NCBI GenBank assembly: GCA_027603945.1
Contig: JADIIU010000152.1
Coordinates: forward strand, 1-28,165
DNA from: Terramyces sp. JEL0728
Lineage: Eukaryota > Chytridiomycota > Chytridiomycetes > Rhizophydiales > Terramycetaceae
Direction of reading: 5' to 3'
DNA: 28,165 nucleotides
Part shown: positions 1-28,165 of the stretch, one piece after another
How positions within the stretch are numbered: position 1 is the first letter of the stretch
How the letters are laid out: the number at the start of each line of letters is the position of its first letter
Program-made: the position numbers and the translations under genes
The notes under the pieces: model-generated
Database searches by the model: none
The model's input: the letters and a program-made list of their open reading frames with translations, nothing else
Told to the model about the DNA's origin: nothing

Positions 1-935
1 GAACAGTAATGGTTGGAAATTTTAAAGGAACAGGACATGTACAACCATCTACTAATTCTGCACAAAATGCCCAGCTAGTAACACTAATGGAAACGCCACC
101 ATCATGGTCTAAACTCTCGTTTTCGTTTTGCAGACCAACTGCAATAACCTCAAATGGAAATTCTATCACTTCAAGTCAGAGTTACATTTATGCATCATCT
201 CCAGAGCAAGCATCTGGGACTTCTGCTAGTAATTTACGGTTTGAACAACACGCTGGAACTTATGGTAGTTTTACCACAGATTTTACCAGCACTGCCAATA
301 CGACTACCACTGGAACGGCAAACGGTCCGTTCCTTTTGCCAAGTGGGTCTATTACCTATCAAAATATTGTTGCTCTCCATGGAGTATTGATGTTTATTGC
401 ATGGGCTGTATCTCCGTTCTTTGGAATCTATGTCGCAAGATTCATGAAGGATAAGCTTGGTCATAATTGGTACAGACTGCATGTCTTCTTCATGGGATTT
501 GCGTGCGGGTTAATTACCATCGTATCTTTTATTTTGATTGTGCTTTACATTCACCCTCCGCATTTCAGCGAACTCCACCACATCTTTGGGTTGATTGTGT
601 TCCTCGGCGTACTGATTCAGATTTCGTTGGGGTATATCAGTAACGCAAAATGGAGTCCAGAAAGAACTTTTATTCCGTGGTGGGATAAAGCACATTGGTG
701 GGTTGGAAGAGGGCTGTTTCTTCTTGCCCTGATCAACGTTTTCCTTGGGATTTCCTTGTACAAGGAAGACTATGAGATAGCTAAGTGGGTAGCACCTCTG
801 TTCTGGATCGTGGTTGCCGCTGGGATCGCATTGTTGATATACGGTCAAGTTACCGTTGGGCAAATCCACCACACGAAAAAGGAAGAACAGGAGATGATGA
901 TGGTTGGGCTCGAAGATTCTAATACATCCCTATGA
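1..935 (+). CDS. DOMON-cytochrome b561 protein, copy 1 (5' end outside window)
   Basis: Partial gene; its start lies left of the window and the first complete codon is at base 3. The first ~100 visible residues are the end of a DOMON domain (extracellular haem or sugar-binding beta sandwich) and a Ser/Thr-rich linker. Five hydrophobic helices follow with the b561 histidines in place: HGVLMFIAW, RLHVFFMG, HHIFGLIV and HWWVGRG. Proteins of this family pass electrons across a membrane, usually from ascorbate or another cytosolic donor to an outside acceptor. It ends in a charged tail and a TGA stop. It is the first of three tandem copies. The ATG at base 9 is internal, because copies 2 and 3 continue upstream of the matching residue. 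Bases 1-139 are almost identical to copy 2 at 1290-1428, whereas the rest is clearly diverged. Family assignment is firm; substrate unknown. Confidence 0.9.
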   Translation, partial: TVMVGNFKGTGHVQPSTNSAQNAQLVTLMETPPSWSKLSFSFCRPTAITSNGNSITSSQSYIYASSPEQASGTSASNLRFEQHAGTYGSFTTDFTSTANTTTTGTANGPFLLPSGSITYQNIVALHGVLMFIAWAVSPFFGIYVARFMKDKLGHNWYRLHVFFMGFACGLITIVSFILIVLYIHPPHFSELHHIFGLIVFLGVLIQISLGYISNAKWSPERTFIPWWDKAHWWVGRGLFLLALINVFLGISLYKEDYEIAKWVAPLFWIVVAAGIALLIYGQVTVGQIHHTKKEEQEMMMVGLEDSNTSL

Positions 936-1070
936 TTCCTGTGCCATTGCAATTTGGGTTTTTCGTTCTTTTGAGTCTTCTGGTTTCCAACAATGAAATC
1001 GAGCCAGGCTTCTTTTGGCCGGCGCCTCGATTGAATATCCATGCAAACAACAGAGATTTTTAACAATTCT

Positions 1071-2179
1071 ATGCTCGCGAGCGTATTATTTCAGCTAGTT
1101 AGCTCAGCAACTTTTAGCGCCGACGGTCAGTTTAGCGTGACAGGAGCACCAGCATCAAACGGGAAAACTTGTTTTACTATCCACAGTGCAGAGTCTGGGT
1201 AAATCAAATTAATTGTAGCTGGGCAGCAATTGGTGTTGGCAGTACGGCAATGTCTGGTGCAGATATTTATCTAGGATGGAAGAATCAGGGAACAGTAATG
1301 GTTGGAAATTTTAAAGGAACAGGGCATGTACAACCATCTACTAACTCTGCACAAAATGCTCAGCTAGTAACACTAATGGAAACGCCTCCATCATGGTCTA
1401 AACTCTCGTTTTCGTTTTGCAGACCAACAGCCATCACTGCCAGTGGAAAATCAATTACCTCTGGACAAAATTATATTTACGCATCATCTCCTGATAGCGC
1501 ATCAGGAAGCTCTGCTAGTAATTTGGCATTCAGTCAACACGCAAATAACTATGGTACTTTTAATGAAGATTTTACAACTTCCACCAACACAACTACTACT
1601 GGTAACGCTAATCAGCCGTTTCTTAAGCCAGGTGATGGTTTCACGTACCAGCAAATTGTAGCGCTGCACGGCATCTTGATGTTTATTGCGTGGGCCGTTG
1701 CACCATTCCTCGGCATATTCTGCGCAAGATATTTAAAAGATGTCCTTGGGCACAATTGGTACAGACTCCACGTATTCTTCATGGGGTTCGCCTGCGGATT
1801 AGTTACAATCGCATCCTTTGCATTGATAGTTCTGTATGTCCGTCCTCCGCATTTCAATGAAAACCACAAGATCCTTGGTTTGATTATCGTTATTTCCTTG
1901 CTCGTTCAAATTACCTTGGGATATATTAGCAACGCAATGTGGACGCCAAATCGCAAGTCAATTCCAGTTTGGGACAAAGCACATTGGTGGTTTGGACGGA
2001 CATTGTTTTTATTGGCGCTTGTCAATGTATATCTGGGCATTGATTTGTATGGAGATAATTATGGCACCAGCACTTTTGCATTTGTCGTATTCTTTGTTGT
2101 TTTAGGATTAGGAATTATCATGATGGGGGTTGGCCAATGGAAGTATGGGCAAGTGCATCATGTTGATTCTGATGTATAA
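1071..2179 (+). CDS. DOMON-cytochrome b561 protein, copy 2
   Basis: Two exons, 1071-1198 and 1219-2179, joined across a 20-nt intron, give 362 residues. The start MLASVLFQLVSSATFSA is a short signal peptide. The DOMON domain follows (residues ~25-150; ESGWAAIGVGSTAMSGADIY spans the splice), then a Thr/Asn-rich linker. The cytochrome b561 part begins at ~185, with haem-ligand candidates His193, His227, His259 and His298. Expected role: transmembrane electron transfer between cytosol and the cell exterior or secretory lumen. The intron is required: reading through meets TAA at once, while splicing restores a sequence that matches copy 3 across its own intron at the same place. The TAA stop is fused to a poly(A) signal (TAATAAA). 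Copy 2 lacks the two N-terminal cysteines seen in copy 3. Confidence 0.93.
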
Positions 2180-2327: not shown

Positions 2328-3443
2328 ATGCTGGTATTCATTTTCCTGGTGGAATTAATTAGCGCTGCAACCTATTGTCCAATCGAAAACCAATTTTGTA
2401 TAACCGCAGTACCGTCAAATACGACCGGCCAGTCTTGCTTTACTATTCACAGCGCCGAATCTGGGTAAATCCGACTTGATCATAGTTGGGCAGCAATGGG
2501 AGTTGGAAGTAGTATGATGGCTGGAGCAGATATATACCTGGGGTGGAAGAATCAAGGCACTTTAAGAATTGGAAACTTGAAAGGAACTGGACATGTCCAA
2601 CCGTCGGTAAATTCAGTCCAGAACGCTCACATTGCTACGTTAGTCGACTCTTCTCCTTCATGGTCCCAGCTATCATTTTCCTTCTGTAGACCTACTACTC
2701 TTTCGGCAAATGGGAATTCCATTGCCCCTACACAAAACTATATCTTTGCATCCTGTCCAGATCAAGCATCAGGAACTAACGCTTCGAACTTGAACTTCAA
2801 CCAGCACGTGAGCAACTACGGATCCTTCTCGTTTGATTTCACTACTAGTACAAATACCACTACTACTGGCAACACCCAGCCGTTTCTTACTCCAAGTGGT
2901 GGATATACATATCAACAAGTTGTAGGTATCCACGGAGTGTTTATGTTCATCGCATGGGCCGTATCTCCGTTCTTTGGTATCTTTTGTGCCCGCTATTTGA
3001 AGAATGCCCTTGGACAAAACTGGTACAGATTGCATGTATTATTCATGGGAGTTACTTGCGGCATAGCCACCATAGTTTCCTTTATCTTAATTGTACTATT
3101 CATCCAGCCACCACACTTTGACGAAAAGCACAAAGTGATTGGGTTGGTTATTGTAATAGTTTTGATTGGGCAAGTCATTTTAGGCTATGTTAGTAATGCT
3201 AAATGGGACGAAAATAGAAAAGATATTCCTTGGTGGGATAAATTACACTGGTGGGTTGGCAGAGCTGTGTTTTTACTTGCTGTGGTTAATGTATACCTTG
3301 GGATCGACTTGTACGAAGACAACTTTGGCGACGCGCCTGCTTTCACTGCCTTCTTCTGGATCTGTATTATCTTGGGCGCTATATTGATGCTGTATGGGCA
3401 ATGGAAATATGGCCAAGTTCACCATGGCTACAAAAACGTTTGA
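2328..3443 (+). CDS. DOMON-cytochrome b561 protein, copy 3
   Basis: Exons 2328-2464 and 2486-3443, separated by a 21-nt intron, give 364 residues. The N-terminus MLVFIFLVELISAA is a signal peptide, followed by a segment with two cysteines (YCPIENQFC) absent from copy 2. The DOMON domain spans about residues 30-155. The b561 membrane part starts near residue 187, with conserved histidines beginning at His195 (HGVFMFIAW), then RLHVLFMG, EKHKVIG and LHWWVGRA. The intron position is the same as in copy 2, so the duplication followed intron gain. Predicted role as for the other copies: a membrane-bound haem electron-transfer protein. The TGA stop lies 43 nt before the next gene. Family call is secure; which donor and acceptor it uses cannot be told from sequence. 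Confidence 0.93.
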
Positions 3444-3970: not shown

Positions 3971-5339
3971 ATGATTCAAACTGAAAACCAAAATGTTACG
4001 GCAGATGGAGGAATAATTAAAATCCCAATCGTTTCTCAGCCGGAACGCAAGGAAATTAAATGGGAACGAGGAATAAATGCCAAATTGCATTACAAGGCGT
4101 TTGCTTACCTCGTTCCTGGACAAAAGGAAGAATGTAAACACGATACCGACTGTGTTCATAAATCACATTCATTTTGTGGATCGGATTGTAAAGGAGAAAA
4201 GGATGCGGACCGTATGAAGAACAAGGTAGAATTGATGCAGAAACTATTGGATTCTTCCAAAATAACAAAGGATGAGAAAAAGGTTTGTTGAGACTAATCA
4301 AGGAAACAAAAATCGAACTGGATCCCAACTTGAAGCCAGTTAGACAGCAAGTATCAAATTCCAGGGATTTACAGCCATTTCCATTTGAGCTGCGTATTGG
4401 ATATTCGTTTTCAGTGAAAGCAATCGAGTTGTGTATCAAGACTATGAAAATTGGAGAAAGAGCAAGGTTTTTGTGTATGCCAGAATACTGCGATGTAGCT
4501 TTTTCCATAACATAGGGATTTTCTCAATTGGAAAGCGTTATGAGACAGGAAAAGATGAATAGAGAACTAAAGGAACAAGGAAAGCCGCCAATCAATTTTG
4601 GGGGATGTTGCGCTCATGCAACACCTGAGACGATGGAGATTAACAAGGGTTTAGAGGATTTGATCCAAGTTCCTCTGGTAATTCTCATTCATTTTAGGAA
4701 TTTGAATTTGAACTGATTGAAGTCCAATATCCAGAATCGTTTGAAAAGGAGCCTTGGGAAATGACTCCATTTGAAAAATATAAAGAAATTCCAAAAATTA
4801 AGGATCTAGGGAATGATTTTTTCAAGAAAGGTGACTATGAAAACGCAGACAAGAAATATGAAAGATGTCTAGTACTCGTTGAATCTCTGGCTACCACTGG
4901 GATTGTGCTTGATTTAAAAAAGGAAAAGACTGAAGACGAAAAGAGAATCAAACGCGGTCTCGAGCCAGAAGAATCTATTATACCCAAAGACAACAAGATT
5001 GAATTAGAAAAGGTAGAGTCGATGATTCAATCTGCGAGATTGAACTATGCTATCTGTAAAATGAAGCTGAAAGATTACCAATCAGCAATTCAACAATGCG
5101 CAAAAGTTCTCCAGGATGACCAAAAGTGTGTCAAGGCATTGTTTAGAAGAGGGCAGTGCTATTTGGAGATTGGTAGAGATTTGGATTTGGCACAAAAGGA
5201 TTTTGAGGCTCTGAAAAGCTTGATGGTGAAAGGATCTCCAGAATACCACCAACTTGCTCAGCTGGAAACTCTTTTGCAAAGGAAATTAAAGCTGCACGCT
5301 CAAAAAGAGAGGCAAATGTTTGCTGGCAAGTTATTTTAA
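3971..5339 (+). CDS. AIP-like immunophilin: FKBP-type domain plus TPR repeats
   Basis: Four exons, 3971-4282, 4303-4494, 4516-4677 and 4698-5339, with introns of 20, 21 and 20 nt, give 435 residues. Residues ~25-245 form an FKBP-like fold of the AIP (aryl-hydrocarbon-receptor interacting protein) type. The segment EFEFELIEVQYP, then DPW-like EKEPWEMTPFEKYKEIP, leads into three TPR motifs (~255-420) ending in a basic helix. AIP-family proteins bind the C-terminal tails of Hsp90/Hsp70 through the TPR and help client folding or mitochondrial import. Animal AIP has about 330 residues. The extra length here comes from an insertion near residues 52-104 with four cysteines (C55, C61, C69, C73) and from long TPR linkers. 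The FKBP active-site aromatics are not obviously kept, so prolyl isomerase activity is doubtful. An AATAAA signal follows at 5354. Confidence 0.85.
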
Positions 5340-5478: not shown

Positions 5479-7246
5479 ATGGATTTAACACTGACAATAC
5501 TGACAAGTTTCTTTTCAATTGTTATACTTGTCCGCTTGCTGGTATTATCTTGGAAAGTACTAAAAGAAAATTCAAAGAGTCAAACGTGCTACCTTGTCCT
5601 GCATTTGCTTCATTTTGGAACGCTTGTAATGATGGTATTTTTTCAATACTGGTTTGTATTTGGTGTATGGCTGTCCGCAATTACGTTGGATTTGATAATG
5701 ATTGATTTCCTAAAGCCATTTCTTCATGTATTGGGATATAAAAAGACATTTGTGTTTCTTGTCCTGGCGACTATGATTTACGCGACTTTGACATTCCCGC
5801 TCTTTACGAGGTAATTTATATTGATGCAGTGAATTCGTCCATAATCCAGGTCTAGATGAGGTAACTTGCGAGTAATCTAGTATTATTTTGTTGGAACAGG
5901 GGCAGCGTATGTCTTGTCTTCAATATTTCAATCATGCAGTCCATTTTACATGGCATTCAGTATTACAAAAGGAGTGAAAACGAAACCAAAAGACTATGAT
6001 CAAAATTGGAAAGCGGTCAAGATATATCTGATTATTTTATCAATCTGCAGTTTCCTTTCATCCTGCAACTGGATACTATTTACAATTTTACGGAACCTAA
6101 CGTTCATCAAACTAGGATTTTACTTTCAGTCCTGTTGGTGCGCTATATTTCCGTTCTGCTTTGACAAGATCAAACGGCTGAGGTAATTGGAATTGAACAA
6201 GATTTACATTGGACCAATTGAGGCAGGCAAAACTGAAAAACCAGAGAGAGACAGTGATTGTTCTTCGAGAGTCAATTGCCAAGCTGCCAGGCATTGCGAA
6301 ATCTGCCGCTTTTGGATCGATTCAATCTTTGACCGGGATAATGGAAGGTTCGATAAAGAAATCGACTTCAATGTCATTCAATGACCCTAACGTTAAAAAA
6401 TCAAATTCTATGCTCAATGATTCTAATGTTAGAAAATCCAACTCGATGTTATCCAACGAGCAGGCAAAGCATCAGGGAATCGCCAGATCTGCAGCATACG
6501 GATCGGCACAGTCCTTGACAGGAAAATTGGAAAACATAAAGAAATCAAATTCCATGTCTTTTACGGAAAATCCAGATGAAATTCATATTGTGCAGCCAAA
6601 AGATACTTACTGCCATATTCCCAGACTGGAGATGGTTCAAGAGCTTCGAGGGCAAAGCGCTATTTCGTTCAACAAATATGATTTGAATCAAGCTGGTATT
6701 AGAGACTCTTTCGTAAAGGAGGACTTGAAAAATGATGGCAACCAAAGTAAAAAGCACTTTGAAACGTTGGTCTTAATACAATCAATTGAAAAAGAGCTTG
6801 ATGGTCCAGCAACTAATAACGGGGAGCAAGTATTACCAAAGGAAAAGTTCAACACGTCAAGCGGTTCGAAGCTTGAAAACTACGAGAAACAACTGGATAT
6901 GGATGTTGATCGGATGGAAAATGTACACGATCAAGATAGCCATGCATCTCAATCCATAGTGAATTCTGTCGAAAAAAAGAAAAGCTTGCTCGTTGAATCG
7001 GAAAGAGGAGCCAATAGTATATCCAATCGTTTGAAAGATAAAGCAATAGACAGTATTTATGGTGTACCTTCCAGATATACTGATGAAGGAGGAAATTCGA
7101 TTTCAAGCTCACAACGAGATAATAGTAACCCCGACGACAGCTCTAAACCCGCACCTTCTATAGCTAGTAACCTCGAAGCGCCAAAAGTTTCAAATCAAAG
7201 TCAGACAACTTCCAGCGGCATTGCTACATCCAGTCATCGAAAGTAA
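5479..7246 (+). CDS. seven-helix membrane protein with long repetitive Ser-rich cytosolic tail
   Basis: Four exons, 5479-5810, 5830-5860, 5881-6182 and 6202-7246, with introns of 19, 20 and 19 nt, give 569 residues. The second exon is only 31 nt. Hydrophobic segments at about 3-25, 37-58, 60-80, 89-108, 121-147, 169-190 and 195-215 make a seven-helix N-terminal half. From ~225 on the protein is hydrophilic. It contains two copies of a GIA(K/R)SAA(F/Y)GS.QSLTG unit, each followed by repeated KKSNSM-type motifs. These are basic-directed Ser sites of the kind AGC kinases phosphorylate. The shape recalls a G-protein-coupled receptor or a TOM1/THH1-like membrane protein, but I see no signature that decides between them. 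It is possibly a lineage-specific receptor. Splicing is supported by continuous hydrophobic helices across the joins. Confidence 0.75.
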
Positions 7247-7349: not shown

Positions 7350-7782
7350 ATGAAGTTACTCGACGAAGGACAACAAAACGATCAACCAGTAACATGGGAA
7401 GATCAAGAGAATATCGTAATCAAATATTAATCGCAGAACAAATTTAGCAAGCACAATATCAAATTAGATGCTCTTGAGGACAAATTCAAAAAATATGCTA
7501 CAGAAAAAGAATACTTGGATGACTTGAAAATGGAATTAGAATTGGCAGATGAAGACGAATTAATAAAGTACAGTATTATTAACCAGGTATCGTATTGGGG
7601 ATTGCTTCATCTCCTTGCCTGCTGAAGAATGCAACAATAGGATCGACCAGCAACATGAACGGTTGAATGAAACTATTGAAAGAACCGAAGGGCAAATCAA
7701 TGGAATTAAAAAAGAAATGGCAAAGTTGAAAGCGTTGTTGTACGCCAAGTTTGGCAATAATATTAATTTGGAAAAGGATTAA
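7350..7782 (+). CDS. PFDN4: prefoldin subunit 4
   Basis: Exons 7350-7415, 7437-7567 and 7587-7782, with introns of 21 and 19 nt, give 130 residues, against about 134 in the human protein. Recognised by VTWEDQENINKFSKHN near the start, LADEDELIKYRIGDCFISLP in the middle (created only by removing the 19-nt intron gtacagtattattaaccag), and KALLYAKFGNNINLEKD at the end. It is a beta-type subunit of the hexameric prefoldin co-chaperone, which hands unfolded actin and tubulin to the CCT chaperonin in the cytosol. Two long helices flank the central beta hairpins. The raw frame runs past the second donor into a stop, so the spliced model is needed. Start chosen at the ATG giving the usual short N-terminus. 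Very sure of the family. Confidence 0.93.
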
Positions 7783-8362: not shown

Positions 8363-8961
8363 ACCATAGCCTTTGACCAAAATTGAACCAGCCAGCCTTG
8401 ACGTTTCTTTCATTGAAAATCATTACTTGTCGAGTTCCAACTTGCGCATATACATACTCCAGCTTGAATTTACTATTGTATTTGTAACCCTGACATACAA
8501 TCTCGCAAGACTTTCCATTTGCGTGGTTGAATGCGAAATATTGGATCTGCATTCTCTTGCGTCCATTCTCGCTAAACTCTGACGAACTAGTTAGTGTATG
8601 GTTACCTTAATCGGTACCTGCTCGTGTTAGGAGGTCCATATGAACAATGGATTGGGTAGCCCAGTATTCTGGTTAGCTCTGAACTGCTCATTACCAGTTG
8701 CGACGATTCATCAAACAACTCTTCGGCATAATTACGTCCAAATAGTGTTTCTCCTAGCGAATAAAATATAGCCCCAGTAAGAACTAATCCACCAGCTACT
8801 ACTATGAAATATCCTGTTTGTTCAGCATAAAAATATGCCTTTTTTTTGAATGAGGTTTGTACGGTCTTTGGCTGCTGTTTTACCGGTTGAATTCTTCCCA
8901 GCGGTTGAGAAGATTTGTATCTAGTCTGTGTGAATATCCTTTTGAACATTTTGGAAAACAA
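8361..8961 (-). CDS. TIM21: TIM21-like mitochondrial inner membrane import subunit
   Basis: Exons 8961-8606 and 8586-8361, joined across a 19-nt intron (gtaaccatacactaactag), give 193 residues. The N-terminus is basic and lacks acids (MFSKMFKRIFTQTRYKSS), a mitochondrial presequence. A single membrane helix (GYFIVVAGGLVLTGAIFYSL, ~residues 51-70) leads to the intermembrane-space domain with LGYPIHCSYG and, after the splice, KRMQIQYFAFNHANGKS. This is the order of Tim21, which tethers the TIM23 complex to TOM and to respiratory complexes. Intron removal is needed because the raw frame stops 15 nt past the donor, while the rest of the domain lies in another frame. The stop TAA is fused to a poly(A) signal. 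Family call is good; the length is close to that of yeast Tim21. Confidence 0.85.
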
Positions 8962-9022: not shown

Positions 9023-11127
9023 TTATATAATTGGTTTTTTGGAATTCAGCTTGTTGATCCTTTGAGAATCGTCAAACATGTTCATATTGAGTTCTTGTAA
9101 CTGCTTGAGCTTCAGCTCTATCTCTGGATTAGGCTTTTTATCTTCAAGTTTTGGCGATTCGGATGGATCTGGATCAAGTGGTTGATTGATGGACTTTTTT
9201 CTTTCTAAAGGGAATGCAGTTGGTGATGCAAGTGGACTTGAAATATCAGGCAGTAGTATTTTTTCAGTTGTTGGTGTTTTTTGTTGGTCTAAATCAAGGT
9301 TAAATGAGAGCGACTGCAAGGTTGGAGTTATAGCATCAATGGATGGCGGGGGTATTGAAGTGGAGAGTGGAATAGTAAGTGGTAGTGGTGTCACAGTTGG
9401 AGTTTGGGGAGAGGAATTGATTGATGGATCAGGGGTCTGGTATTGGCCAGAATACTGTTCTTGATTATACAGCTTTTCGGTTGCAATGACGATCGAAGGC
9501 TCTTGAAGAGTCAGTTCGTTCCGATCTTCATCTGAGCATCTGCTGCCGCTATCAGACTCGGTTTTGGTATCTGAATTTTTATCTGATGTTTTACTTCCAT
9601 TGTCAGATTCATATTTTGCATTTTCAATGTCCGATCCCTTGTCTGATATTGGCACTGATGGATCGTCCCTCTTTCTCATTAGCACGGATCGGATGGTTTC
9701 TTCGATACGCCTTCTGGTTAATTGTTTATCCTTTGCCAGAATGAGCTTTTCCTTCACCAATTCAGACACTACATCTGTTGCAGTGTCTTCCGCAAGGTTG
9801 AACGGGAATTTGACTTCCAGTGATGATTTTCCAGACATATAAGTCATTTTCAGCATCACTTCATCCCCAATAAATTCAATTACTTTTACATCGCAAGTCG
9901 TCTTTTCTTTCAACGGAGTGGAATGTCTTGAAATATGAAACATTGACCCTATTACAGCCTGATTCACAGAATGCTCTGAATTGTCTGAATCGCTATTTTC
10001 ATATTCTTCATCGATTTTGGTGGACAGTGAGTCCAAAGAGAAAAGCGGTGGTGTTTGTTCGACAGGTATATTTGCAGATGTTTGATCTGGAGATGCTTTG
10101 ACAGAATTCAAGCCAGTATTCAAGCCAGTATTCAAGCCAGTATTCAGAGTATTAAAGATATCAGCATTGCTTGATACACTGTGCAGTTGACTGATGAATG
10201 GATGGGATAAAAGGTCGGTAGCTGACGGCCGTTTTTCCACATTGTGTTCTATACACAGCTCTATGAATGCTCTGGTCTCTGGATCCTCCACCTTTTGCAG
10301 TGCAGCCGGTTTCACCCCAGCCATAACTTTCTTGTAAATCTGGGCTTGGTTGGTACATTCACTGTATGGATACTCTTTGGTTGCAATTTCCAGAACCACT
10401 AAACCAAAAGCGTAAATATCAACTTTTTCATCATATTTTTCATCATACAATTCAGGAGCCATAAATTCAGGGGTTCTAAATTAGTTCAAAAGTACCCCAA
10501 TACAGACGACAAGTGCTGAGAAGCTTTGATTGCAGCCAGCCCTAGATCACCAATCTTTGCTTGTCCGTTGTTTCCATTGATAAAGATGTTTTCACATTTC
10601 AAGTCTCTGTGAATGATTGGAGGGTCTCTGGTATGCAAATAATGCAGCCCGTTCAGTATCTGTCTGCACCAATTCTTAATAATTTTTGGTTTTATCGGTC
10701 CTTTGGCTTTTCGAATATACGACTTTAGTGTGCCTGAAGTCATTAGCTCTGTAATAAAATAAATATCGTCTTTTCCTGCAACAGCACTTGCGGCTCTCCA
10801 AGAGTATAATAAGTTCTAAATTAGTTTCAAATTACAATAATATTATCGTTCCTAAGTGATTGGAGTATTTCGATTTCATGTTGAATCCTGTTTGCATCCA
10901 GCGGAGAAGTAAATGAGTTCATCCTGATCTGATTCCAAGCGACTTCAACCCCTTCTTCGTCGTCGTATGATTTAAAAACTTCCTTGTGTGCTCCTCTTCC
11001 TAAACTATGTCTGTACCGCTGGAATCTCCCAGTTGGATCAGTCTCATAATTAAAATTTGGATACCTCTATCACATCGTCTTCTTCGATGCTGTGCCTTCC
11101 AATTGTTGTTGATCCCATTTCGTTCAT
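9023..11127 (-). CDS. WNK (with-no-lysine) protein kinase
   Basis: Exons 11127-11065, 11042-10836, 10815-10496 and 10475-9023, with introns of 22, 20 and 20 nt, give 680 residues. The kinase domain (~30-295) starts [20 protein letters not shown]. The usual strand-3 lysine is replaced (VEVAWNQ, Asn58) and Lys41 in the glycine loop takes its place, the defining WNK change. [10 protein letters not shown] (Asp161) and the WNK-type GDLGLA (Asp180) are present, so it should be active. A region at ~388-460 resembles the PF2/OSR1_C-like regulatory domain; the rest is Ser/Pro-rich. In animals WNKs sense chloride and crowding and control ion transport. A LNTG repeat sits at 306-319. The 5' end is uncertain. 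The same frame continues upstream to an ATG at 11343, broken by a single TGA that a 27-nt GT..AG segment (11278-11252 region) would remove. Confidence 0.9.
10107..10142. repeat. three perfect 12-bp tandem repeats inside the WNK gene
   Basis: The unit ttcaagccagta occurs three times head to tail and is followed by a decayed fourth copy. On the coding (-) strand it encodes the LNTG repeat between the kinase and the regulatory region. Being 12 bp, copy changes keep the frame, so the linker length may vary between strains. Confidence 0.8.
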
Positions 11128-18034: not shown

Positions 18035-19351
18035 TTAGCAATAAATCGTACTCTTGACTCCCAATATTTCTTCAATTCTTAACACGTACTTTTTGCAGTT
18101 GTCTGGCAACTCTTCAAAAGTTTTGCACTTGGAAATGCTTGATTTCCATCCTGGCAAAGTTTCATAGACAACTTCAACAGAAGAGAGAACGTCCAAGTCG
18201 GCTGGGAAGCTATCTAGCGCTTTTCCGTTGTATTTGTACGAAACACCGATCTTGATTTCTTCAAATTGGTCCAGAACGTCCAGTTTAGTTAGATTGAGGC
18301 TGATTAGTTAAATAGTACCTGCTGTAGCCATTGATTCTGGTTGAATACTTCATCACCACCAAATCTAACCATCCGCATCGTCTTCGTCTGCCTGTTGTAG
18401 TTCCCCATTCAGCCCCTACATTTTGCAAGGTTTCGCCGATAGTCTTGGATTAATACAAAAATACATTTAATTGTTCAGTTGGGAATGGACCAGCACCAAC
18501 ACGGGTAGTGTAGGCCTTTACTACCCCATAAACATGTCCAATTTTGTGCGGTGGAATGCCCAATCCGGTGCATACACCGCCGATTCCAGTATTCGACGAA
18601 GTGACATACGGATATGTGCCGAAATCAAGATCCAGCATCAAAGCGTTGGCTCCTTCAACTAAGATTCTCTTGTTTGAATCAATTGCGTCGTGGACATAGT
18701 TGATCGTGTCAATGACATATGGCTTTAACTTTTCGGCAATCATCTACTATTAAGACAATAATACTTTGTAATTTGCAAGTTCGCCTTCGATGTCATATTC
18801 AAAGTTTCCAAATCTCTTTTTCTTGTTGGCGATAATTTTACGGACTCTCTCTTCAAATTCTGGAAAGTTGTAGAGGTTGTGGACTCTCAAACCGCTGCGA
18901 GAGGCTTTTGAAGAATATGTTGGACCAATTCCTCTTCTGGTAGTTCCAAGGTCTTGCCCCACAACCGCCAATTCGCCTTCTTTCAACCCATCAATAAGCT
19001 GATGAACGTCGAGCACAATATGAGCTCTTGAAGAGACGAATAATCTTCCGGTAACGTCTATTCCCTTGTCCACTGTTGCTTGAACTTCCTTGAAGAACGA
19101 TGGTAAGTGGACTACAACACCGTTTCCAATCACTGAAACGCAATTTGGGTTGATTAATCCAGAAGGCAGGAGATGGAAGTCAAACTTTACTCCATTTACA
19201 ATGATTGTATGTCCGGCGTTATTTCCTCCCTTGAATTAAAACCAATTACTTGGCATCTGCAACAGACGTCGATATTTTCAGATAATACGTCCACTAGCTT
19301 TCCCTTCCCTTCGTCACCCCATTGCGCACCCAATACTACTGAGACTGGCAT
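18035..19351 (-). CDS. adenylosuccinate synthetase
   Basis: Five exons, 19351-19250, 19229-18765, 18743-18465, 18443-18319 and 18299-18035, with introns of 20, 21, 21 and 19 nt, give 411 residues. It catalyses GTP-dependent joining of IMP and aspartate to adenylosuccinate, the committed step to AMP in the cytosol. Seen in the sequence: [12 protein letters not shown] (GTP/Mg loop and catalytic Asp), [31 protein letters not shown] (IMP binding), [39 protein letters not shown] and [10 protein letters not shown] (base specificity). All expected motifs are intact and the length is normal. A TAA lies directly before the ATG, fixing the start. The second intron ends in a doubled acceptor (TAGTAG), and only the outer AG keeps the frame. 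Very sure of the function. Confidence 0.96.
18744..18764 (-). other. 21-nt intron with tandem acceptor TAGTAG
   Basis: Second intron of the adenylosuccinate synthetase gene. Using the last AG gives ..[12 protein letters not shown], the family sequence. Using the AG three bases earlier would make an 18-nt intron and put an in-frame TAG at the start of the next exon. Confidence 0.7.
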
Positions 19352-19640: not shown

Positions 19641-21474
19641 ATGACAAAAACCGAATCTGAGGAGCTGTTAAAAATTGCAAACAGCAACGTTAAACAAGTC
19701 TGGGATCTCAATAACATTACGCAGCCAAGCCAGGAATTATTCAACGCACAGGATGGGAGAATCAAACAAGATATCCTGCGATTAATTATCGTAAAATATT
19801 ACTCACCCAGCAATATTTGCAAGATGAAGGCTACTATGCTTGTACAATGACAATTATGGATGAAGCGAATCTTAAACAAGCGGAAAGATTAGAGCAGCAG
19901 TCAGAAATCAAGAGAATGAAAAAAGCTATCCTAGATGGGGATTGGGCTGAAGTAAATTTCCCTAATGCAGGTTGATAAACTATGTGCCAGACCGTTCATG
20001 AGGAATCACAAGTCTTTCTTATACGCAGCTTACGAGCAACAGTTTCTGGAGTATATCGATCACCATGAAATTCAAAAAGCTTTTACTCATTTAAACAAGC
20101 GGCTGAAGCCATTAGAGCATTTGCAGCGGACTCCAAATGAATTTCGAGACTTGTGCTATTTATTAACCTCGAAATCTGTTCAGGATGTGCACTCGTACAA
20201 AAACTGGGAAGGGATTGCATCATCAAGAGAAAAGTTGGCCGAGATGTTTCAAAATATGATAGATTACGATGTTGCTGAGAGAGAAGGATCGGCTCATGTT
20301 CCTCAGAAACGACTATTGACCTTGCTGCAACAAGCAGTCGCTTATCAAGTCGAATACGCCAGATACCACCCCAATGTTACCCCGAAAATCACTTCCTTGC
20401 TGCAAGATTTCAATTCACTAATTATTCCCAATGCAGTAAAAAGCACTTTTCTGGGGCATACGGCAAATGTGAAATGTGCAGAGTTTCTCGGAGAAGACGG
20501 ATCTAAAATTATTTCTGGTTCAAGGTATACAGCTTTAATATATAGCGACAATACCTGTCGTATTTGGGATACCGAAACGGCCGAGTGTCTTGGGGTACTT
20601 GAAGGTGATCTATCGATTAATTGCAGGACATACTTCCCGAATTTGGGACATTTCCTGCCGTCCAGATGGAAAATTCGTCGCTAGTGGTTCAGGAGATTCT
20701 ACTATCAAATTGTGGGATGTGAAGAATATCGGAGCACCGTGTGTTTCTACACTGCTTGGCCATAGTGGGGATGTATACACAGTGCAGTACCATCCTATCG
20801 GGGTGATTTTTACTTACACTAGGATTATCTGGCTACTGGTGGCTATGATAAGATTGTTAGATTATATGACGTGGAAAGAGAAACCATTACAAAGGCATTT
20901 TCTGGTCACACTCTGTCGGTTTCGAGAAACATCTTTACCCCACTGGGAAATTTAATAATCTCTGGATCGTAAGCGATATTAATGTAGAAAAGATAATTCA
21001 ATCAAGTTCTGGGATATCGTCTCTGGGTTATGTATAAAGACCATTTCGGCACATCTTGGAGAAGTCACGAGTGTCGAAATGAGTTCTGATGGCTATTACT
21101 TGCTCAGCAGCTCCAAAGATAATTCTAACAGACTATGGGATATCCGAATGGTAAGCTTTTATTCACCACAGTTGCGAGCGATTAGAAAGTTCAAAGGGCA
21201 TCAAAACACTTCAAAGAATTTTATTCGTGCGTCATTTGCAGGAGAATCCTTGATAGTGGGTGGTTCGGAAGTACACATATTTAATCAATAGGACGGAATC
21301 ATCTATGTTTGGGATAGAGAAAACGGTAAAGTGCTACAACGACTGAGACATCACGGTGGATTAGTCTACAATATGATGTGGAACAACAAGCAATCGCTCT
21401 TCCTCAGCTGTTCTGAAGATCAGACAATGTGTACGTGGTGGTTTGATGAATCAAAACCAATTTCATTAAAATAA
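19641..21474 (+). CDS. LisH/CTLH-WD40 repeat protein
   Basis: Nine exons, 19641-19790, 19811-19951, 19971-20524, 20546-20604, 20627-20802, 20823-20968, 20988-21150, 21172-21270 and 21292-21474, separated by eight introns of 19-22 nt, give 556 residues. The N-terminus has a LisH-like helix pair (QDILRLIIQYLQDEGYYACT), then a CTLH region (AILDGDWAEVDKLC...YEQQFLEYIDHHEIQKAFTH). At least six WD40 repeats run from ~225 to the end, such as LGHTANVKCAEF...CRIWDT and GHTSRIWDISCRP...IKLWDV. Such proteins are scaffolds, often in ubiquitin-ligase or nuclear complexes; the exact orthologue is not certain, and it is not SMU1. Two introns (20525-20545 and 21151-21171) are 21 nt and contain no stop, so unspliced RNA would still encode a protein with seven extra residues in a WD repeat. 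Confidence 0.85.
20525..20545 (+). other. stop-free 21-nt intron (first of two in the WD40 gene)
   Basis: Donor GTATAC, acceptor TATAG, phase 2. Removing it restores SGS-SDNTCRIWD, a normal WD repeat. If kept, it adds seven residues (reading SGSRYTALIYSDN) and no frameshift or stop. Confidence 0.75.
21151..21171 (+). other. stop-free 21-nt intron (second of two in the WD40 gene)
   Basis: Donor GTAAGC, acceptor CACAG, phase 0. Removing it gives RLWDIRM-LRAIRKFKGH, the normal step between WD repeats. If kept, it adds VSFYSPQ in frame. Confidence 0.75.
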
Positions 21475-21522: not shown

Positions 21523-23506
21523 CTACCATGAATTTACTATTACCTTTTCATTCTTTTTGCGCATTATCTTTCTCATTTTCTCAGTCATCATATATGGGCG
21601 GTTTGAAGATCCGTCGTTGATTTCCAAATCTTCAAGTACAGATAGGAATATTGTATCAATAGCCAAATGGTAATTACCAAAGAATATTGCAGAGATCAGA
21701 TAGGTTTCCAGACCAACGAATACAACGGTTATTGCAGGAAAGTTAATTGGGTTCTTGAACGCGTCTGGCTTGCATACGATGAAAAAGTAAGCACCAAAGC
21801 AGTTTGTACCTACTACTATTAACTTGGCCAAAAAGAGTGTAGCGTCGGCGACATAGTTTACTGCTATCGTTTTTGCGGCATTTCTGAGCAATAAAGCCGT
21901 TGCAGCACCAGCAGATTTAAAGAATGCTTTTCCTGTGATTGCTATAAAAACATACGCATTCTTGTTTACAAATTTTACAATCTTTTCGACAATGGTCATG
22001 CAACACTGCGCACATGCCACCACGTACTTTAGAGCCTTAACTTTGCTCTTGCTAACCTTCTTTTGGATGTGGAAGAGGAATATTCTGATTAATTCCACGA
22101 TGGTAATAATAGCTGCTCCAAGAACCATTGATCCAAGGTGGTAGCGAAATACCCTACCCAATGATCTGATTACAGGCAGATGCATCTTTCGGGTCTTGTC
22201 TGGCAACCAATACCATTCAGCAACAGCACCAGCAGCTGTTGTTTCGGAAATCGCAAAGATTGTAAAGTACGTCCAGATGAATCCAGCGACATGATAATAA
22301 ATCATATTCTTTGCGTTTGCAGGGGAAATAGTGCCGACAAAAGGAACGGTAATATCTTTAGTTATCGTTGTCAAGTACAACAGAACAACCAAAAAGTAGG
22401 CCATTAATATCAGAATAGCCAAGGACAAGAATATTGGAGCAATGGCTAATGTTAGAATCTATCTACTCAATCCTGGAAGTCTTCTGAATGCCGCTGAGGC
22501 TTCATTTATTATTTCAATTGCCATTGTAATGCGTTTTATCATTACAATTGTGATCAGCAGTATTAAGCCGGCAACTACTACTGCTGTAATGAAGAAAGCA
22601 AGGGATGCTGTCACCTCGTTTTGCTGTATAGGCGTTGCAGAATTGAAGAATGAAATATTTGCAATAACTTGATGTCCAATGTCGATCACACCATTTGCAC
22701 TGCTATTTGTTTCGTAAGCGACCTTCCTGGATTGCCAATAGAAATATAATGCCACGGCACTAGCGATTCCTATGCAGTTTACCAATAGCAGTGTCAGCCA
22801 AACAAAAACTCCAACAATGTACTGCGCGATGAATAGCCAAATAAATGAAAAGATTATTGCTGTGCCAGCGCAAACTACTAGTAGCGGCCAGGTATTTTGT
22901 AAATCCGCCAAGATCATATAGCTGTACTTTGATCCTGAAGTAATAATTGTTTGCAAGTTGATGGTTGTATTTCCAGCTTGAATACTCGTCCCATTCAACA
23001 TACTTACTGGGATTGGTTCTGTCGGTACACATCGGAATAATACTGGGGTAGATGCATACGTAAATCCAGCACATTGTCCAGAATAGATATACGAAGCAAG
23101 GTTTGAATTGGTTGGTGTGATCCCATATTGACAAAGAGCTTCTGCTGGCGATGAAATCACTGCAGTTGCATTTGGGCAAGACGGAAGACAGATGTAGGTA
23201 GCGTTGGATAAATCAGCTAATTGAGTAGGGTTTATAAAATACAAAACTGGGTTCTTGCTTTGGTCAGTAAAGGAATTATTCAGTCCCGCATTATTTACTC
23301 CACAAAAATTGCCCAAGTAGTCCTTTGGTATCCTAATTCTTAGGTTTGCGTTACTCTAATTCTTTCAAATCTCCATTAGCGACTGCAATTTCACAAACAA
23401 AAAACATTCCAACCCAAAAGACTATGAATAAAAGTAAACACCAAATATCCCGGCACTTCCTTGTTCTAGACACTCCAGCTGCAAGTTTGGCTGGATCTTC
23501 TCCCAT
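21523..23506 (-). CDS. choline transporter-like protein (SLC44/CTL family)
   Basis: Exons 23506-23355, 23332-22467 and 22445-21523, with introns of 22 and 21 nt, give 646 residues. The first exon has the family start: a charged RTRKCRDIWCLLLFIVFWVG with membrane helix 1, then LEIPKDYLGNFCGVNN. A large cysteine-containing outer loop with N-glycosylation sites follows (NNSFTD, SNATYICLPSCPNAT), and then about nine more helices. The diagnostic SLC44 block is near the C-terminus: LPVIRSLGRVFRYHLGSMVL, followed by a cytosolic helix with paired Lys. SLC44 proteins move choline or ethanolamine-type substrates across plasma and organelle membranes for phospholipid synthesis; yeast Pns1 belongs here, with its function unresolved. 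Convergent with the WD40 gene, 48 bases apart. Confidence 0.9.
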
Positions 23507-23576: not shown

Positions 23577-25271
23577 TTATAGTAATCCTAACTCTTTCAT
23601 TCTCCTTCTGGTATTTGCCATTCTCTTATCAACCTCATCCAGCAAAGATTCCAAATCGCTTTGCTTTTGTCGTGATTTGGCACCTGTCGAAGGGATCCTA
23701 CTTAATTCCGCAATCAACTAATGTTACATTGGGGTACCTTTGACTTTTCTTCAGATAGGTTCTTTAAATCCATTTCAAGCTCTTCCTTTTGTTCATAATA
23801 ATAGTTGTGAGGAGAAGGTTCGTGTGTAATGGGCGAGATCGCCGGGTTCTGTTTTGCAGCTTTAAAATTTGGGGTAGAAATAGCCGAACGCAACTTTCTG
23901 TCCACTCCAGGATATGGTGATTTTACATTTTCAGGATAAGGCGATTTTCTTTGGACAAATGATGGTAGACCAAGCTCTGAGGCATCAGAATGAATTTTTT
24001 CAGATTGAGGTCTTTGAAAAGCCCCCTTAGAAGGGCTGCCATACGAATCTTCGTGTTTGTTGCGCAATTCATCATTTTCTTGTTTCAAATCCTGGACTAG
24101 AACCTTGGATCAGAAATGTGCTACCATTAGAGATTCAACATTGTATTTTGCTTGGTTCAATTGCTCCAATAATTTTGCTTCGCTATTTTTGGTGGAAAGC
24201 GGGTTAAATTGCAGTTTCCTCAATGAACTATGTAAACTCTCATTTTCCGATTGCAAATCCCTAGAAATTAAAGCCAGCTACTCTATGATAAATTGCTGGG
24301 ATTGGATTTTTCTTGAAAACAATTCAAAATCTGCTTCCTTTTTCACGCTGATTTTCTAATATCAAATCAATTTACTCTGCTGTGCTCAAATCTATTGTTC
24401 AACAGCTCGTAGTCCATTGAAATGGCTTCAAGATTGTTTTTCATTTGTACATTTTCCTCTGACAATTCTTTCGTTACAAGCATTTTACCTTTGTTTCGCT
24501 CTTGCATATCCAAATAAGCACCTTGCAGCTCTTGAATATCATAAATCAATTCATTGATTTTAAGGTTGGCTTCATCTTCCAGCGAGTGACTGTTTTGGAG
24601 TAGTGCATGAATATTTTGATTCTCATTGTCCAATTCGATCGTCATTTTTTGAGCCATATCCAGCTATGTAAAATCCAAAGTACCTGCACTTTTAATTCTG
24701 CGACCCTTTTTTCTAATTGCTGCTTTGAATTATCAATTATATTTTCCTTATCGAGAACGTCTGGATTTATTGTATGAGGGATTTCATCGGCAGGTTCTAG
24801 CATTGCACTGAGCTTGAATTCCAGCATATTGGCTGCTACATTTTGCATTATATCTTGATCCACCACGCTACCGATTTCTTTAGCCTCATCTTCCAAGTTA
24901 ACTGTGGATTCTGCAGCAGGAATATTTTGCACATCTGTCCTAGTATTTTCAGGAGTTCGTAATACTTGAGGAGGCGAAATTACCTTTGTTTCAGAATCCA
25001 AAATATCACCTTCTGTGAGCGTAGTACTTTGAAATATTGTTTCGGAAGAGATTAGGGGAGATTGATTTGGGGTTTCGGCAAGCTCATTCCCGACTGTTGA
25101 AAGCGATTGAGAATCCACTGAGATATCAGTTCTGCTTTTGTGAACTTGAAAATCCGTTTCCAAATCATCCTCACTGTCCGATAGAATTGCTTTTGATTTT
25201 TTAGACCTTAGCAATGACAACCCCCAGGATTTTCTGTTTGGTTTACTTTTTGAATTTTTTAATTTGAACAT
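23577..25271 (-). CDS. coiled-coil protein, function unknown
   Basis: Six exons, 25271-24684, 24663-24376, 24355-24282, 24260-24125, 24103-23738 and 23717-23577, with introns of 20, 20, 21, 21 and 20 nt, give 530 residues. Residues 1-30 are very basic (MFKLKNSKSKPNRKSWG), 30-180 are acidic and Ser/Thr-rich with possible Pro-directed phosphorylation sites, and ~180-345 form a heptad-rich coiled coil. A Pro/Ser-rich stretch with KSPYP repeats follows, and a second coiled coil ends with LIAELSRIPSTGAKSRQKQS then DLESLLDEVDKRM. That last block looks like a conserved module of a centrosome/cytoskeleton protein, but I cannot name the family. GTG at 25295 is in frame; ATG 25271 is the sensible start. 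The joins are supported because each restores a continuous helical heptad pattern. Confidence 0.75.
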
Positions 25272-25385: not shown

Positions 25386-28009
25386 CTAGTAAACCATAGA
25401 TTCTTCTTCGTCATCCATAGGATGGGTTTTTTGCTTCTTTGCAGCCGCAGATTGCTATCATTAATGAATAATACCTTCTTTTTGCCTTGCTTCTTTCCTT
25501 CAGTCGGTTCTTCTGGATCGACTTTAAAGTATCTTGCAAATAATCTGTTGGAAGCGTATATAAGTGCAGGGATGGAAAGCGCAGCAACTACACCTAACAA
25601 GGCATACGAGAGCCAAAGAGAATCAAGTCCTCCACTATGGTTAATAAATTTTACAGTAATTGGCCACAGATGGCATCTTGAATTCCATCAATATTTTTAG
25701 CCAAATCGTAACACTCCAAAGAGTTGTACAGGGTGGTTTGAATTGAGCTCAAGCTGGTGATAATATTTGCTTTAACATAGGTAACTACATTTGTCAACTA
25801 GAATTAATTCAAATTACATTCGCGGATGCATTTCCTGCAAAGTAACCAATACCGGTAATAGATAGGTTGTAATAGTTGGGGATTGTTTGCGCGGTTACCT
25901 GCAGTTAAATCAAAAGTACTTGTAAGGTATTGACATTGGTCTTTAAAGTGGTAATTTGACTTCCCATGGTGTTGGTTGAAGAAATGAGTATATCAATAAG
26001 ACCGCCAGAATTTGCTAATTGTCCAATTAAAGTCTGGGCATTTGCAACTTGCGAATTAAATTGAGTGATAGATTTAGATACATCACTGACGCTTGGACTT
26101 CCAGATTGATAGTCAAACAGCCCCTGGTTTACAGAGCTTCCTGTTGGGAAACTGTTGTTCAAATTGATCAAGTTGGTTTTCATGTTTGGTAACGTAGTAT
26201 TCGCCAAAGTGTTCAAAGCAGTCAAGTTTAACGAAGATAAGTCCAAGCTAGTAAGTGTAGAAAGTTGGCTGGTTGGGCTGTTTGATAGTGACAATACGCT
26301 GTTCAAGTTCCATCCGTCAGACAGCGAGGAAAAGTTCAAAGCATTGATTTGAGTGCTGGCTTGAGAAGTAATATTGACTTGACTGGCATTAAGCACACCG
26401 ATTTCAATTGCAATTGTAATCAAAGATTCATTTTGCGCACACTGTGTCCTCGCAGTGGAGAAATAATTAACATACTGCTGTATACTGCCATTAAATGCCG
26501 GTGCAATGGCTGGCGGACTAGTTTCGAATACAAGATAGCACACTACATGAGTAATAAATACCGTCGCCGAGCACGAGTGCCAAAAGGAACATAATAATTG
26601 CAAACAGCTGAATAAGTAAATAAAATGGCGTAATACATAGATTGCATCTGGATTAGTTTTGTGTTACCCTTTCACAGCATGTGCTCGCTTCAAAGCAAAA
26701 CCAAATGAAAATACAACCAAAATAAACAAGATTAAACTGCTAAGCGCAATCATCCCATCGGCTCTGTAAGATTCGTAGCTCTTGACTTGATTAAAATTTT
26801 GATCGACAGTGTTAATTCCGCCAGAAATACTTGTGTCCAAACTGCTTTGCATAGAAGTGATGGACGAAGATATTTGATTTTGCGCGCTCTTTAAGGATGG
26901 ACCCACAGTTCCTTTGAATGCTGTCGTTAATCAACAGTTACAATCGCCGGCTGAAGTGATTTGTTGCTTAACATTTACAGTCAAAGTTGTTACTATTCCT
27001 TCAATCTGGACGGCAAAATCTGTCAAGTTTGGCATGTTATTCAACCCGCTCATAGTACTTGCGCCGTCAGGGGACTGGTTTATTTGAGTTTGAGCGTTAT
27101 TTGCCAGAGAAACAATATTTCCTGAACTGATTGGAGTATGGAGCTTGAACGAATCGCTTCCGCCTACAATTTGCTGATAACTAGCCCATACAGTAATGAT
27201 GGCGCTGATATTATTAATTGCTATATTAGAGCATTCTTACTGCTGGCCAAGCTGTCGACATCTGTAACCAACGTTCCTTTGGTTGCTGAAATGCTATTAC
27301 CATTTGTTTTAAGGACTCCGACTTGAATCTGGGTGCTGTTCATTGCATCTGCCAGACTGTTCATATTTGGAACTACATTCAGAGTGGTTAAAGCACTAAA
27401 ATCAATCGCTGAAGTGGTGGTGTCGATAGAGTTATTGATGAGTACGGCAATAGAGTTGAAGGCAGTGTTAATTGCAGGGTTAATGGCGTCAACAATTGCC
27501 CCCGCACTGGTTAAAGTTCCGTCAATGCTGACTTGTAAGCTCTTTACAGTTGTATCCAATGAATTGCCTCCAGTAAAGCTGGACACTGCGCAAACACTAA
27601 AATCAAGTTCAGATTACATGTAAACCACATAAATAATCAAAATCCAGAATATTGCGATAGCTTTTTGGGCTGCGTTTGCACTGTTTTTACGATAGTGCTT
27701 CTTTCTAATACTTTTCATGCAGCAACATAGAGCGCAACACTGACAGAGACACGCGAATAATGTCCAAAGCATAGCAATTATTAAGATGGCGACCAATATA
27801 CCAGCTCCCTTATGTTAAATCGATATTACCAAGTAATAACTCGTTGCTTTAGATGTATTGACATAGGAAGAGCCAGTTGCGGTTGCGTTGGCAACTGGAA
27901 AGGTATTCCCACCGCGTGTGGCTACTCTAATAGCCTTTGCTAGACTAACCCAATAACCTAAACCTGCGCCTAAAGTGGAGTAAACATAATCTGTGGTAGT
28001 CGATGCCAT
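25386..28009 (-). CDS. prominin-family five-helix membrane glycoprotein
   Basis: Eleven exons: 28009-27830, 27808-27618, 27596-27241, 27220-26942, 26920-26668, 26647-26562, 26542-25920, 25898-25818, 25797-25655, 25634-25475 and 25454-25386. The ten introns are 19-21 nt and the product has 806 residues. Five membrane helices lie at ~62-82, 108-127, 386-408, 426-450 and 735-757. A cysteine cluster (ACLCQCCALCCC) directly follows helix 1. Outer loops of ~260 and ~285 residues lie between helices 2-3 and 4-5, rich in Asn-X-Ser/Thr sites and helical heptads. The cytosolic tail is charged (MDDEEESMVY). This is exactly the prominin (CD133) plan; those proteins mark plasma-membrane protrusions and cilia and bind cholesterol. 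No signal peptide is evident before helix 1, so a missed 5' exon is possible. Fungal Prm1 is a distant alternative but has a different layout. Confidence 0.8.
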
Positions 28010-28165
28010 GCTTGTGTGGAAATAAAAAGATTGGATTCTCTCTTGCAGTTCTAGTATTCTCTGACGTCATGGACGTGTCATTGTTTAGAAATTCAATTAG
28101 CATTGTACTGCCAGGCCACTAGCAAGTAATCTCTAGTCTCCTGCGATATATTACATTTCTTTGGA

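Follow-up and report, generated by a model that had tools for sequence, protein, structure and literature searches.

Protein genes of the chytrid Terramyces sp. JEL0728, a fungus that we take to be free-living, are interrupted by GT-AG introns of about 20 nucleotides (nt), mostly 19–22 nt. They are described here from one window, which comprises all 28,165 bases of contig 152 (the assembly totals 15,016,339 bases in 231 contigs), and from a genome sample of 228,165 bases consisting of this window and of 10 kb from each of contigs 1–20. Ultrashort GT-AG introns, as claimed by a first-pass annotation of the window, are confirmed across the window as well as in the further 20 contigs of the sample, both by length tests that carry no prior and by alignments with homologous proteins. 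Considered jointly with the mechanism proposed below, they are probably normal spliceosomal introns of the major class (U2-type) whose length has fallen, across the genome, to near the minimum that holds a donor, a branch site and an acceptor, in Terramyces and, by inference, in the sister genus Boothiomyces. The description of the source as a conventional nuclear genome with the standard code and fungal-like genes also holds: NCBI taxonomy places Terramyces in the Chytridiomycota, Rhizophydiales, and the genes are read with the standard code. An orthonectid animal or a ciliate was considered as source and rejected, since a protein match pointed to chytrids.

Length Distribution

Two tests without a length preference were applied to the genome sample. 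When any segment of 12–60 nt was bridged that had open frames of at least 70 codons on each side, GT-AG joins at 19, 20, 21 and 22 nt numbered 24, 43, 22 and 10, the means for the other 255 dinucleotide pairs being 8.5, 10.5, 4.6 and 9.4. The GT-AG excess is clear at 19–21 nt and absent at 22 nt, and nowhere in 23–60 nt does this test give an excess comparable to that at 19–21 nt. A gene finder with a single penalty for every intron length of 12–60 nt placed 110 of its 178 GT-AG introns at 19–22 nt; with five decoy dinucleotide pairs, 11–17 of 116–153 calls fell there. At 24–60 nt the same gene finder called 57 GT-AG introns versus 79–117 per decoy pair, which makes a sizeable hidden class of introns of this length unlikely.

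A signal-trained gene model, which carries length and signal priors with an upper bound of 120 nt and is therefore descriptive rather than a test, predicted 153 genes in the sample with 295 introns between them, of which 279 measure 19–22 nt and 290 measure 18–24 nt. Introns were found in 104 of the 153 genes, with 1.54 introns per kb of coding sequence, and extrapolation to the assembly yields about 19,000 introns, haplotype copies counted in. The window holds 49 introns (8 of 19 nt, 20 of 20 nt, 16 of 21 nt, 4 of 22 nt and 1 of 23 nt; Table 1), namely 47 in 13 of 18 modelled genes and two in SMU1 that were placed by homology. The first-pass annotation had counted 53 introns in 16 of 19 genes, none longer than 22 nt. 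Its ultrashort introns stand, among them the one given as its example in the WNK-like kinase gene; its totals do not, and its upper limit fails by one base at the last intron of the adenylosuccinate synthetase (ADSS) gene. It should be noted that 21-nt introns without a stop are hard to detect by frame, so that exact counts vary with the method.

Placement by Homology

Introns were also placed by spliced protein-to-DNA alignments, with a flat penalty for introns of 10–1500 nt. In ADSS (93% identity to Boothiomyces), introns of 20, 21, 21, 19 and 23 nt in gene order were obtained with four of four homologs. In SMU1, whose residues 1–260 are 100% identical to Terramyces sp. JEL0728 HDV01_001874, 98% to Boothiomyces and 75% to Globomyces pollinis-pini, all eight introns of 19–22 nt were obtained with three of five homologs and seven with the remaining two, one of which is a shorter protein while the other gives a 113-nt non-GT-AG segment instead. 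All 13 introns so placed are GT-AG, and when decoy dinucleotides were favoured instead, with a single homolog for each gene, 12 or all of the 13 lengths of the two genes together were still recovered. Alignments of U2AF65, a gene outside the window, agree in six of six homologs on introns of 20, 19 and 19 nt. With five of the six, additional in-frame segments of 15, 24 or 30 nt appear, which are read, from the alignments, as probable differences in protein length. A 24-nt GT-AG segment recurring with three of the six homologs was considered as an intron and rejected: the U2AF65 proteins of Globomyces and Kappamyces hold the residues that it encodes, so that it is read as coding.

Domain matches to DOMON, kinase (two of three introns), SNF5 and adenylosuccinate synthetase span intron joins. 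Several of the domain and protein-match searches (DOMON, kinase, ADSS, SMU1) used proteins from early gene models that were partly misspliced. For example, these models called the last ADSS intron as 20 nt, which homology (23 nt) and the signal-trained model correct, and they lost the Walker A motif of the AAA gene, which the signal-trained model restores. The 21-nt introns of SMU1 without stops were missed by the gene models and found through homology alone.

Variation between Haplotypes and in Boothiomyces

Two contigs kept separate in the assembly, C199 and C111, are two haplotypes of one region with 98.5% identity (L023/L024, L033-L036). Over 10.76 kb aligned they differ by 10 indels, of which none lies in 6,129 nt of coding sequence, two lie in 226 nt of intron and eight in 4,401 nt of other sequence. 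For this count gene boundaries were set by hand and six of the eight genes modelled on C199 were used: one further gene lies outside the aligned part, and one (7155-7664; low score, differing models) was dropped and treated as intergenic, with no indel inside it. An intron missed by the model (5487-5507) was added by hand. Both intron indels are of 1 nt (21 versus 20 nt) and lie in short homopolymers; assembly error is possible, yet it would need to have struck introns twice.

The deposited SMU1 of Boothiomyces goes out of frame after one junction, where one intron is read through. If 20 nt are removed, all 33 codons (33 of 33) of the tail beyond this junction match the Terramyces exon; at the other 29 lengths tested (range 10–39 nt) at most 0.37 of codons do. 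From this fit we infer that Boothiomyces has a 20-nt intron where Terramyces SMU1 has one of 21 nt (21151-21171). In the deposited SMU1 of Terramyces, six of the eight introns are as placed here, so that the introns are partly implicit in public annotation; the two at 20525-20626 are mis-modelled. Public gene models near these introns are therefore partly wrong, and the deposited models of both genera (P0001, P0121, P0122) miss or misplace some of them. SMU1 of Kappamyces sp. JEL0680 (P0199) has a 9-residue insertion that is absent from the Globomyces protein. It could represent an unspliced intron of 27 nt (by eye, GTAY at its start and AG at its end), which hints at short introns in another genus.

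Splice Signals and Branch Geometry

The donor consensus is A(−3) A(−2) G(−1) followed by G T A (0.90) A (0.55) n T (0.59) T T. Position +5 shows no bias towards G, which stands there in 53 of the 254 introns of the signal-blind model. In the signal-trained set a YTNAY branch motif is present in 250 of 290 introns; among these 250 the branch A falls on intron base 14 or 15 in 218, and in 222 it leaves 5 or 6 nt to the 3′ end of the intron. The crowding of donor, branch site and acceptor described in the first-pass annotation is thus real. With a model blind to the branch, 178 of its 254 introns of 19–22 nt have YTNAY with the A followed by 5–6 nt, against a background of 221 in 5,163 uncalled GT-AG segments of equal lengths, and the flat-length model finds the motif in 86 of its 110 introns of 19–22 nt. 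A plausible branch motif close to the acceptor is also seen in some of five longer introns of the signal-trained model, which are taken up below. Of 249 cases, 242 have as acceptor the first AG past the branch. A pyrimidine tract is absent from the introns: the longest run of pyrimidines has a median of 3 nt; their interior is T-rich (T 0.45 versus 0.275 in coding sequence).

Splicing Machinery

The first-pass annotation had suggested looking for losses or changes in U2AF, SF1 and the small nuclear RNAs (snRNAs). A change is found in U2AF65; U2 and SF1 look normal. The U2 snRNA gene (140 bits, above the cut-off) has GUAGUA intact, with which the branch motif is able to pair. SF1 was found above the cut-off in two exon pieces; it has its helix-hairpin and KH regions and an RKTRW, which resembles its U2AF-binding motif.

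The exon pieces of U2AF65 score 251.7 bits, below the curated cut-off of 310.3 bits; the spliced protein (introns of 20, 20, 19 and 19 nt; locus L025:1454-2854, match at C2:44938-46152) matches human U2AF65. Its architecture RRM1-RRM2-UHM and the U2AF35-binding tryptophan box are retained and RRM2 is intact, so by architecture the protein is still a U2AF65. In RRM1, both aromatic residues of RNP1, a conserved surface that grips RNA, are lost in Terramyces and in Boothiomyces (HCH, with H at both positions). Among the 120 U2AF65 orthologs listed, 118 have F or Y at both positions, and the double loss is seen in Boothiomyces (H, H) and in one other (P0243: S, I). For the Boothiomyces protein, structure prediction gives the RRM1 fold high confidence, which argues that the domain is not simply decaying.

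Proposed Recognition of a 20-nt Intron

The whole intron may act as one compact signal, AAG/GTAATTT...YTNAY-YAG/, in which U2 would pair with the branch motif and the acceptor would be the first AG downstream of the branch. In human extracts some 50 nt are required between 5′ splice site and branch, and human SMU1 together with RED is essential when this distance is short (PMC6692369). With the branch A at base 14–15 in Terramyces the human geometry cannot apply, and U1, SF1/U2 and U2AF cannot share 20 nt simultaneously. Recognition would then proceed by hand-over rather than by co-occupancy, the factors occupying the intron in sequence during early assembly. Since there is no tract and RRM1 is without its RNP1 aromatics, U2AF65 would hardly be a polypyrimidine reader and would serve mainly as a protein bridge, for which tryptophan box, UHM and RRM2 are kept. 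SMU1 would aid activation on the short donor-branch distance, as it does in human extracts.

We advance only tentatively, as a possibility worth serious attention, the full proposal that Terramyces and Boothiomyces gave up polypyrimidine reading in favour of a single 20-nt composite signal, with U2AF65 as a bridge whose RRM1 is disarmed while its fold is kept, and with a hand-over in which U1 possibly has little or no role.

Several points weigh against the broader account of shrunken U2-type introns read by hand-over. That the segments are removed from RNA is deduced from sequence, with indirect support from homologs and haplotypes. Five of the 295 introns of the signal-trained model are 44–102 nt long with GT-AG ends (L005, L006, L016, L020) and are either erroneous calls or rare longer introns. 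The branch motif is present in 19 of the 59 flat-model calls of 23–60 nt, so that some introns longer than the ultrashort class may be real. Introns of more than 120 nt lie beyond the gene finders and are covered by homology in three genes only, in which alignments allowing up to 1500 nt gave no long intron agreed among homologs. Searches of the 15 Mb assembly, which are weak here and cannot show absence, did not find U1 (RF00003, and a pattern of the U1 5′ end and stem-loop), the N-terminal domain of U1-70K, U6 (family and pattern searches) or the N-terminal domain of RED. U6 must exist if splicing does, so that the failed snRNA and protein searches only show how weak such searches are here; 14 control genomes gave no match for the U1 or U6 family either. 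Two matches to U6 below the cut-off (L023, L024) were rejected, as they fall within a protein gene that two haplotypes carry. SMU1 is present in many fungi and is therefore not specific evidence. Finally, the identity of RRM1 to the mammalian domain is 0.31–0.48 in Terramyces and six relatives (including Batrachochytrium, Kappamyces and Globomyces), as compared with 0.67–0.69 in two other chytrids; the drift is thus wider than the loss of the aromatics and need not track intron length.

This last point is at the centre of another explanation, in which the change in RRM1 is unrelated drift in this part of the chytrids and the introns shrank through deletion bias in a compact genome. Batrachochytrium, Kappamyces and Globomyces share the divergence of RRM1 and keep the aromatics, as drift would have it. 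The double aromatic loss, however, is restricted to Boothiomyces and one other of the 120 orthologs listed, and the confident fold prediction for Boothiomyces speaks against simple decay. We regard coincidental drift as possible, if rather unlikely.

U2AF recognition could also be conventional, with the tract moved, such that U2AF65 binds a T-rich stretch between donor and branch and not the 3′ tail. The T-rich intron interior and the intact RRM2, UHM and U2AF35 box would suit such a protein. Human U2AF65, however, grips nine nucleotides (PMC4786784), three times the median of the longest pyrimidine run in these introns, the RRM1 aromatics are lost, and U2AF65 bound there would mask the donor or the branch, all of which makes a moved tract unlikely.

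It has further been considered that the donor of the same introns is recognised without U1, the U1 snRNP being lost or dispensable and the donor being read by U6/U5, which would remove the worst of the crowding. The failed searches for U1 and U1-70K and the lack of a G preference at +5 point in this direction; the same searches do not show absence, U6 having been missed likewise, and the exonic A-2 G-1 and the GTA that are retained can be read by U1. A U1-less donor therefore seems distinctly improbable.

That the segments are not introns at all, and are instead coding inserts, sequencing errors or segments eliminated at the DNA level, can be discarded for practical purposes: some 21-nt segments lack a stop and are translatable (20525-20545, 21151-21171), yet homologs skip the segments at the 13 ADSS and SMU1 places tested, the segments carry GT-AG and a branch signal, two of them and no coding sequence vary by 1-nt haplotype indels, and the frame of the public Boothiomyces protein breaks at the very place where one segment stays in.

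Relation to Known Ultrashort Introns

At about 20 nt, the introns of Terramyces come close to the shortest known from any organism. Uniformly minimal introns have been described from nucleomorphs, mikrocytid parasites and ciliates (PMC10245619, PMC9505925). Those of chlorarachniophyte nucleomorphs (18–21 nt) are many, within narrow size limits that are nearly the same as in Terramyces (PMC10245619). The chlorarachniophyte nucleomorph is, however, a relic endosymbiont nucleus of about 300 genes, whereas the Terramyces introns lie in a 15 Mb fungal assembly; belonging to an assembly of 15.0 Mb, and with residues 1–260 of its SMU1 100% identical to Terramyces sp. JEL0728, the window does not come from a relic algal nucleus. 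The introns of mikrocytids (Mikrocytos, Paramikrocytos; 16–17 nt) are likewise uniform and near-minimal, but mikrocytids are obligate parasites, M. mackini having 224 introns and a spliceosome of 17–19 identified proteins (PMC10245619), whereas in Terramyces each kb of coding sequence carries about 1.5 introns, and U2AF65, SF1 and SMU1 are present.

Among ciliates, the 15–16 nt introns of Stentor resemble those of Terramyces in being AU-rich, in starting with GUA and in having the branch A 5 nt from the end, and most snRNP components have been found in Stentor. They differ in occurring in 18% of genes and in having no strong branch consensus, YTNAY being frequent in Terramyces (PMC9505925). 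Introns of Paramecium and Nyctotherus are about 25 nt long (PMC5014332). The parts of the ciliate ultrashort-intron literature covered make no mention of a change in U2AF65 RRM1.

The 'ultra-short' introns of the fungus Cryptococcus neoformans are those below 60 nt, with a small population below 40 nt (PMC11913375). Its introns average 56–63 nt, more than twice the length in Terramyces, and are widely spread without a uniform 19–22 nt class. Cryptococcus is the richest in introns below 100 nt among the fungi compared (PMC11913375), and its introns are the shortest fungal ones described in the parts covered of PMC9505925, PMC10245619, PMC12316389, PMC8476143, PMC12862383, PMC6692369, PMC8363638, PMC4786784, PMC7408900, PMC13391722 and PMC11913375. 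No fungus whose introns are uniformly about 20 nt long was found in the literature searched, most subscription papers being outside that coverage. Human short introns that depend on SMU1/RED or on SPF45 share with those of Terramyces the problem of a short donor-branch distance or a short pyrimidine tract. Uniform ultrashort introns are thus a known kind; a fungus with this architecture and the change in U2AF65 is new to the literature searched.

A conventional fungal genome with introns of about 20 nt and with sequenced relatives makes the lower limit of intron size, and the recognition steps that can be dropped, testable, and the change in RRM1 of U2AF65 provides a concrete molecular hypothesis. 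If it is true, a minimal intron and a matching change in recognition co-evolved recently enough to be traced within one order.

Genes of the Window

The window itself encodes SMU1, which is needed for short introns in human extracts, and the gene holds eight ultrashort introns of its own. An identification of this WD40 gene as TAF5 was rejected, the protein match showing SMU1.

Table 1. Introns of the window, with the SMU1 gene and one candidate intron outside the 49 counted
Feature	Position	Strand	Gene	Basis
Intron, 20 nt	1199..1218	+	DOMON-cytochrome b561	Trained model; within DOMON match
Candidate intron, 21 nt	2465..2485	+	Third DOMON-cytochrome b561 copy	By eye: GTAAATCCGACTTGATCATAG at site equivalent to 1199-1218
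Intron, 20 nt	4283..4302	+	TPR protein	Trained model
Intron, 21 nt	4495..4515	+	TPR protein	Trained model
Intron, 20 nt	4678..4697	+	TPR protein	Trained model
Intron, 19 nt	5811..5829	+		Trained model
Intron, 20 nt	5861..5880	+		Trained model
Intron, 19 nt	6183..6201	+		Trained model
Intron, 21 nt	7416..7436	+		Trained model
Intron, 19 nt	7568..7586	+		Trained model
Intron, 19 nt	8587..8605	-		Trained model
Intron, 22 nt	11043..11064	-	WNK-like kinase, upstream of kinase domain	Trained model
Intron, 20 nt (first-pass example)	10816..10835	-	WNK-like kinase	Trained model; within kinase match
Intron, 20 nt	10476..10495	-	WNK-like kinase	Trained model; within kinase match
Intron, 21 nt	11847..11867	+	SNF5	Trained model; within Snf5 alignment
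Intron, 21 nt	12205..12225	+	SNF5	Trained model; within Snf5 alignment
Intron, 20 nt	12354..12373	+	SNF5	Trained model; within Snf5 alignment
Intron, 20 nt	12614..12633	+	SNF5	Trained model; within Snf5 alignment
Intron, 21 nt	14985..15005	-	AFG2-like AAA ATPase	Trained model
Intron, 22 nt; join yields Walker A motif GNPGVGKT	14470..14491	-	AFG2-like AAA ATPase	Trained model; motif by eye
Intron, 20 nt	14104..14123	-	AFG2-like AAA ATPase	Trained model; within protein alignment
Intron, 20 nt	19230..19249	-	ADSS	4/4 homologs
Intron, 21 nt	18744..18764	-	ADSS	4/4 homologs
Intron, 21 nt	18444..18464	-	ADSS	4/4 homologs
Intron, 19 nt	18300..18318	-	ADSS	4/4 homologs
Intron, 23 nt (longest of window)	18029..18051	-	ADSS	4/4 homologs
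Gene with eight introns	19641..21474	+	SMU1	Protein match; several relatives named SMU1
Intron, 20 nt	19791..19810	+	SMU1	5/5 homologs
Intron, 19 nt	19952..19970	+	SMU1	5/5 homologs
Intron, 21 nt, no in-frame stop	20525..20545	+	SMU1	5/5 homologs; missed by trained model
Intron, 22 nt	20605..20626	+	SMU1	5/5 homologs
Intron, 20 nt	20803..20822	+	SMU1	4/5 homologs
Intron, 19 nt	20969..20987	+	SMU1	5/5 homologs
Intron, 21 nt, no in-frame stop	21151..21171	+	SMU1	5/5 homologs; missed by trained model
Intron, 21 nt	21271..21291	+	SMU1	4/5 homologs; fifth protein stops short
Intron, 22 nt	23333..23354	-		Trained model
Intron, 21 nt	22446..22466	-		Trained model
Intron, 20 nt	24664..24683	-		Trained model
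Intron, 20 nt	24356..24375	-		Trained model
Intron, 21 nt	24261..24281	-		Trained model
Intron, 21 nt	24104..24124	-		Trained model
Intron, 20 nt	23718..23737	-		Trained model
Intron, 21 nt	27597..27617	-	Multi-span membrane protein	Trained model
Intron, 20 nt	27221..27240	-	Multi-span membrane protein	Trained model
Intron, 21 nt	26921..26941	-	Multi-span membrane protein	Trained model
Intron, 20 nt	26648..26667	-	Multi-span membrane protein	Trained model
Intron, 19 nt	26543..26561	-	Multi-span membrane protein	Trained model
Intron, 21 nt	25899..25919	-	Multi-span membrane protein	Trained model
Intron, 20 nt	25798..25817	-	Multi-span membrane protein	Trained model
Intron, 20 nt	25635..25654	-	Multi-span membrane protein	Trained model
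Intron, 20 nt	25455..25474	-	Multi-span membrane protein	Trained model

Three DOMON-cytochrome b561 genes stand in tandem (9-935, 1071-2179 and 2496-3443), the domains being assigned by a Pfam match in the middle gene and by visible similarity in the other two copies. At 15494-16888 this fungus has a member of the animal haem peroxidase family (PF03098), a gene intronless in its modelled part, which excludes the 5′ end.

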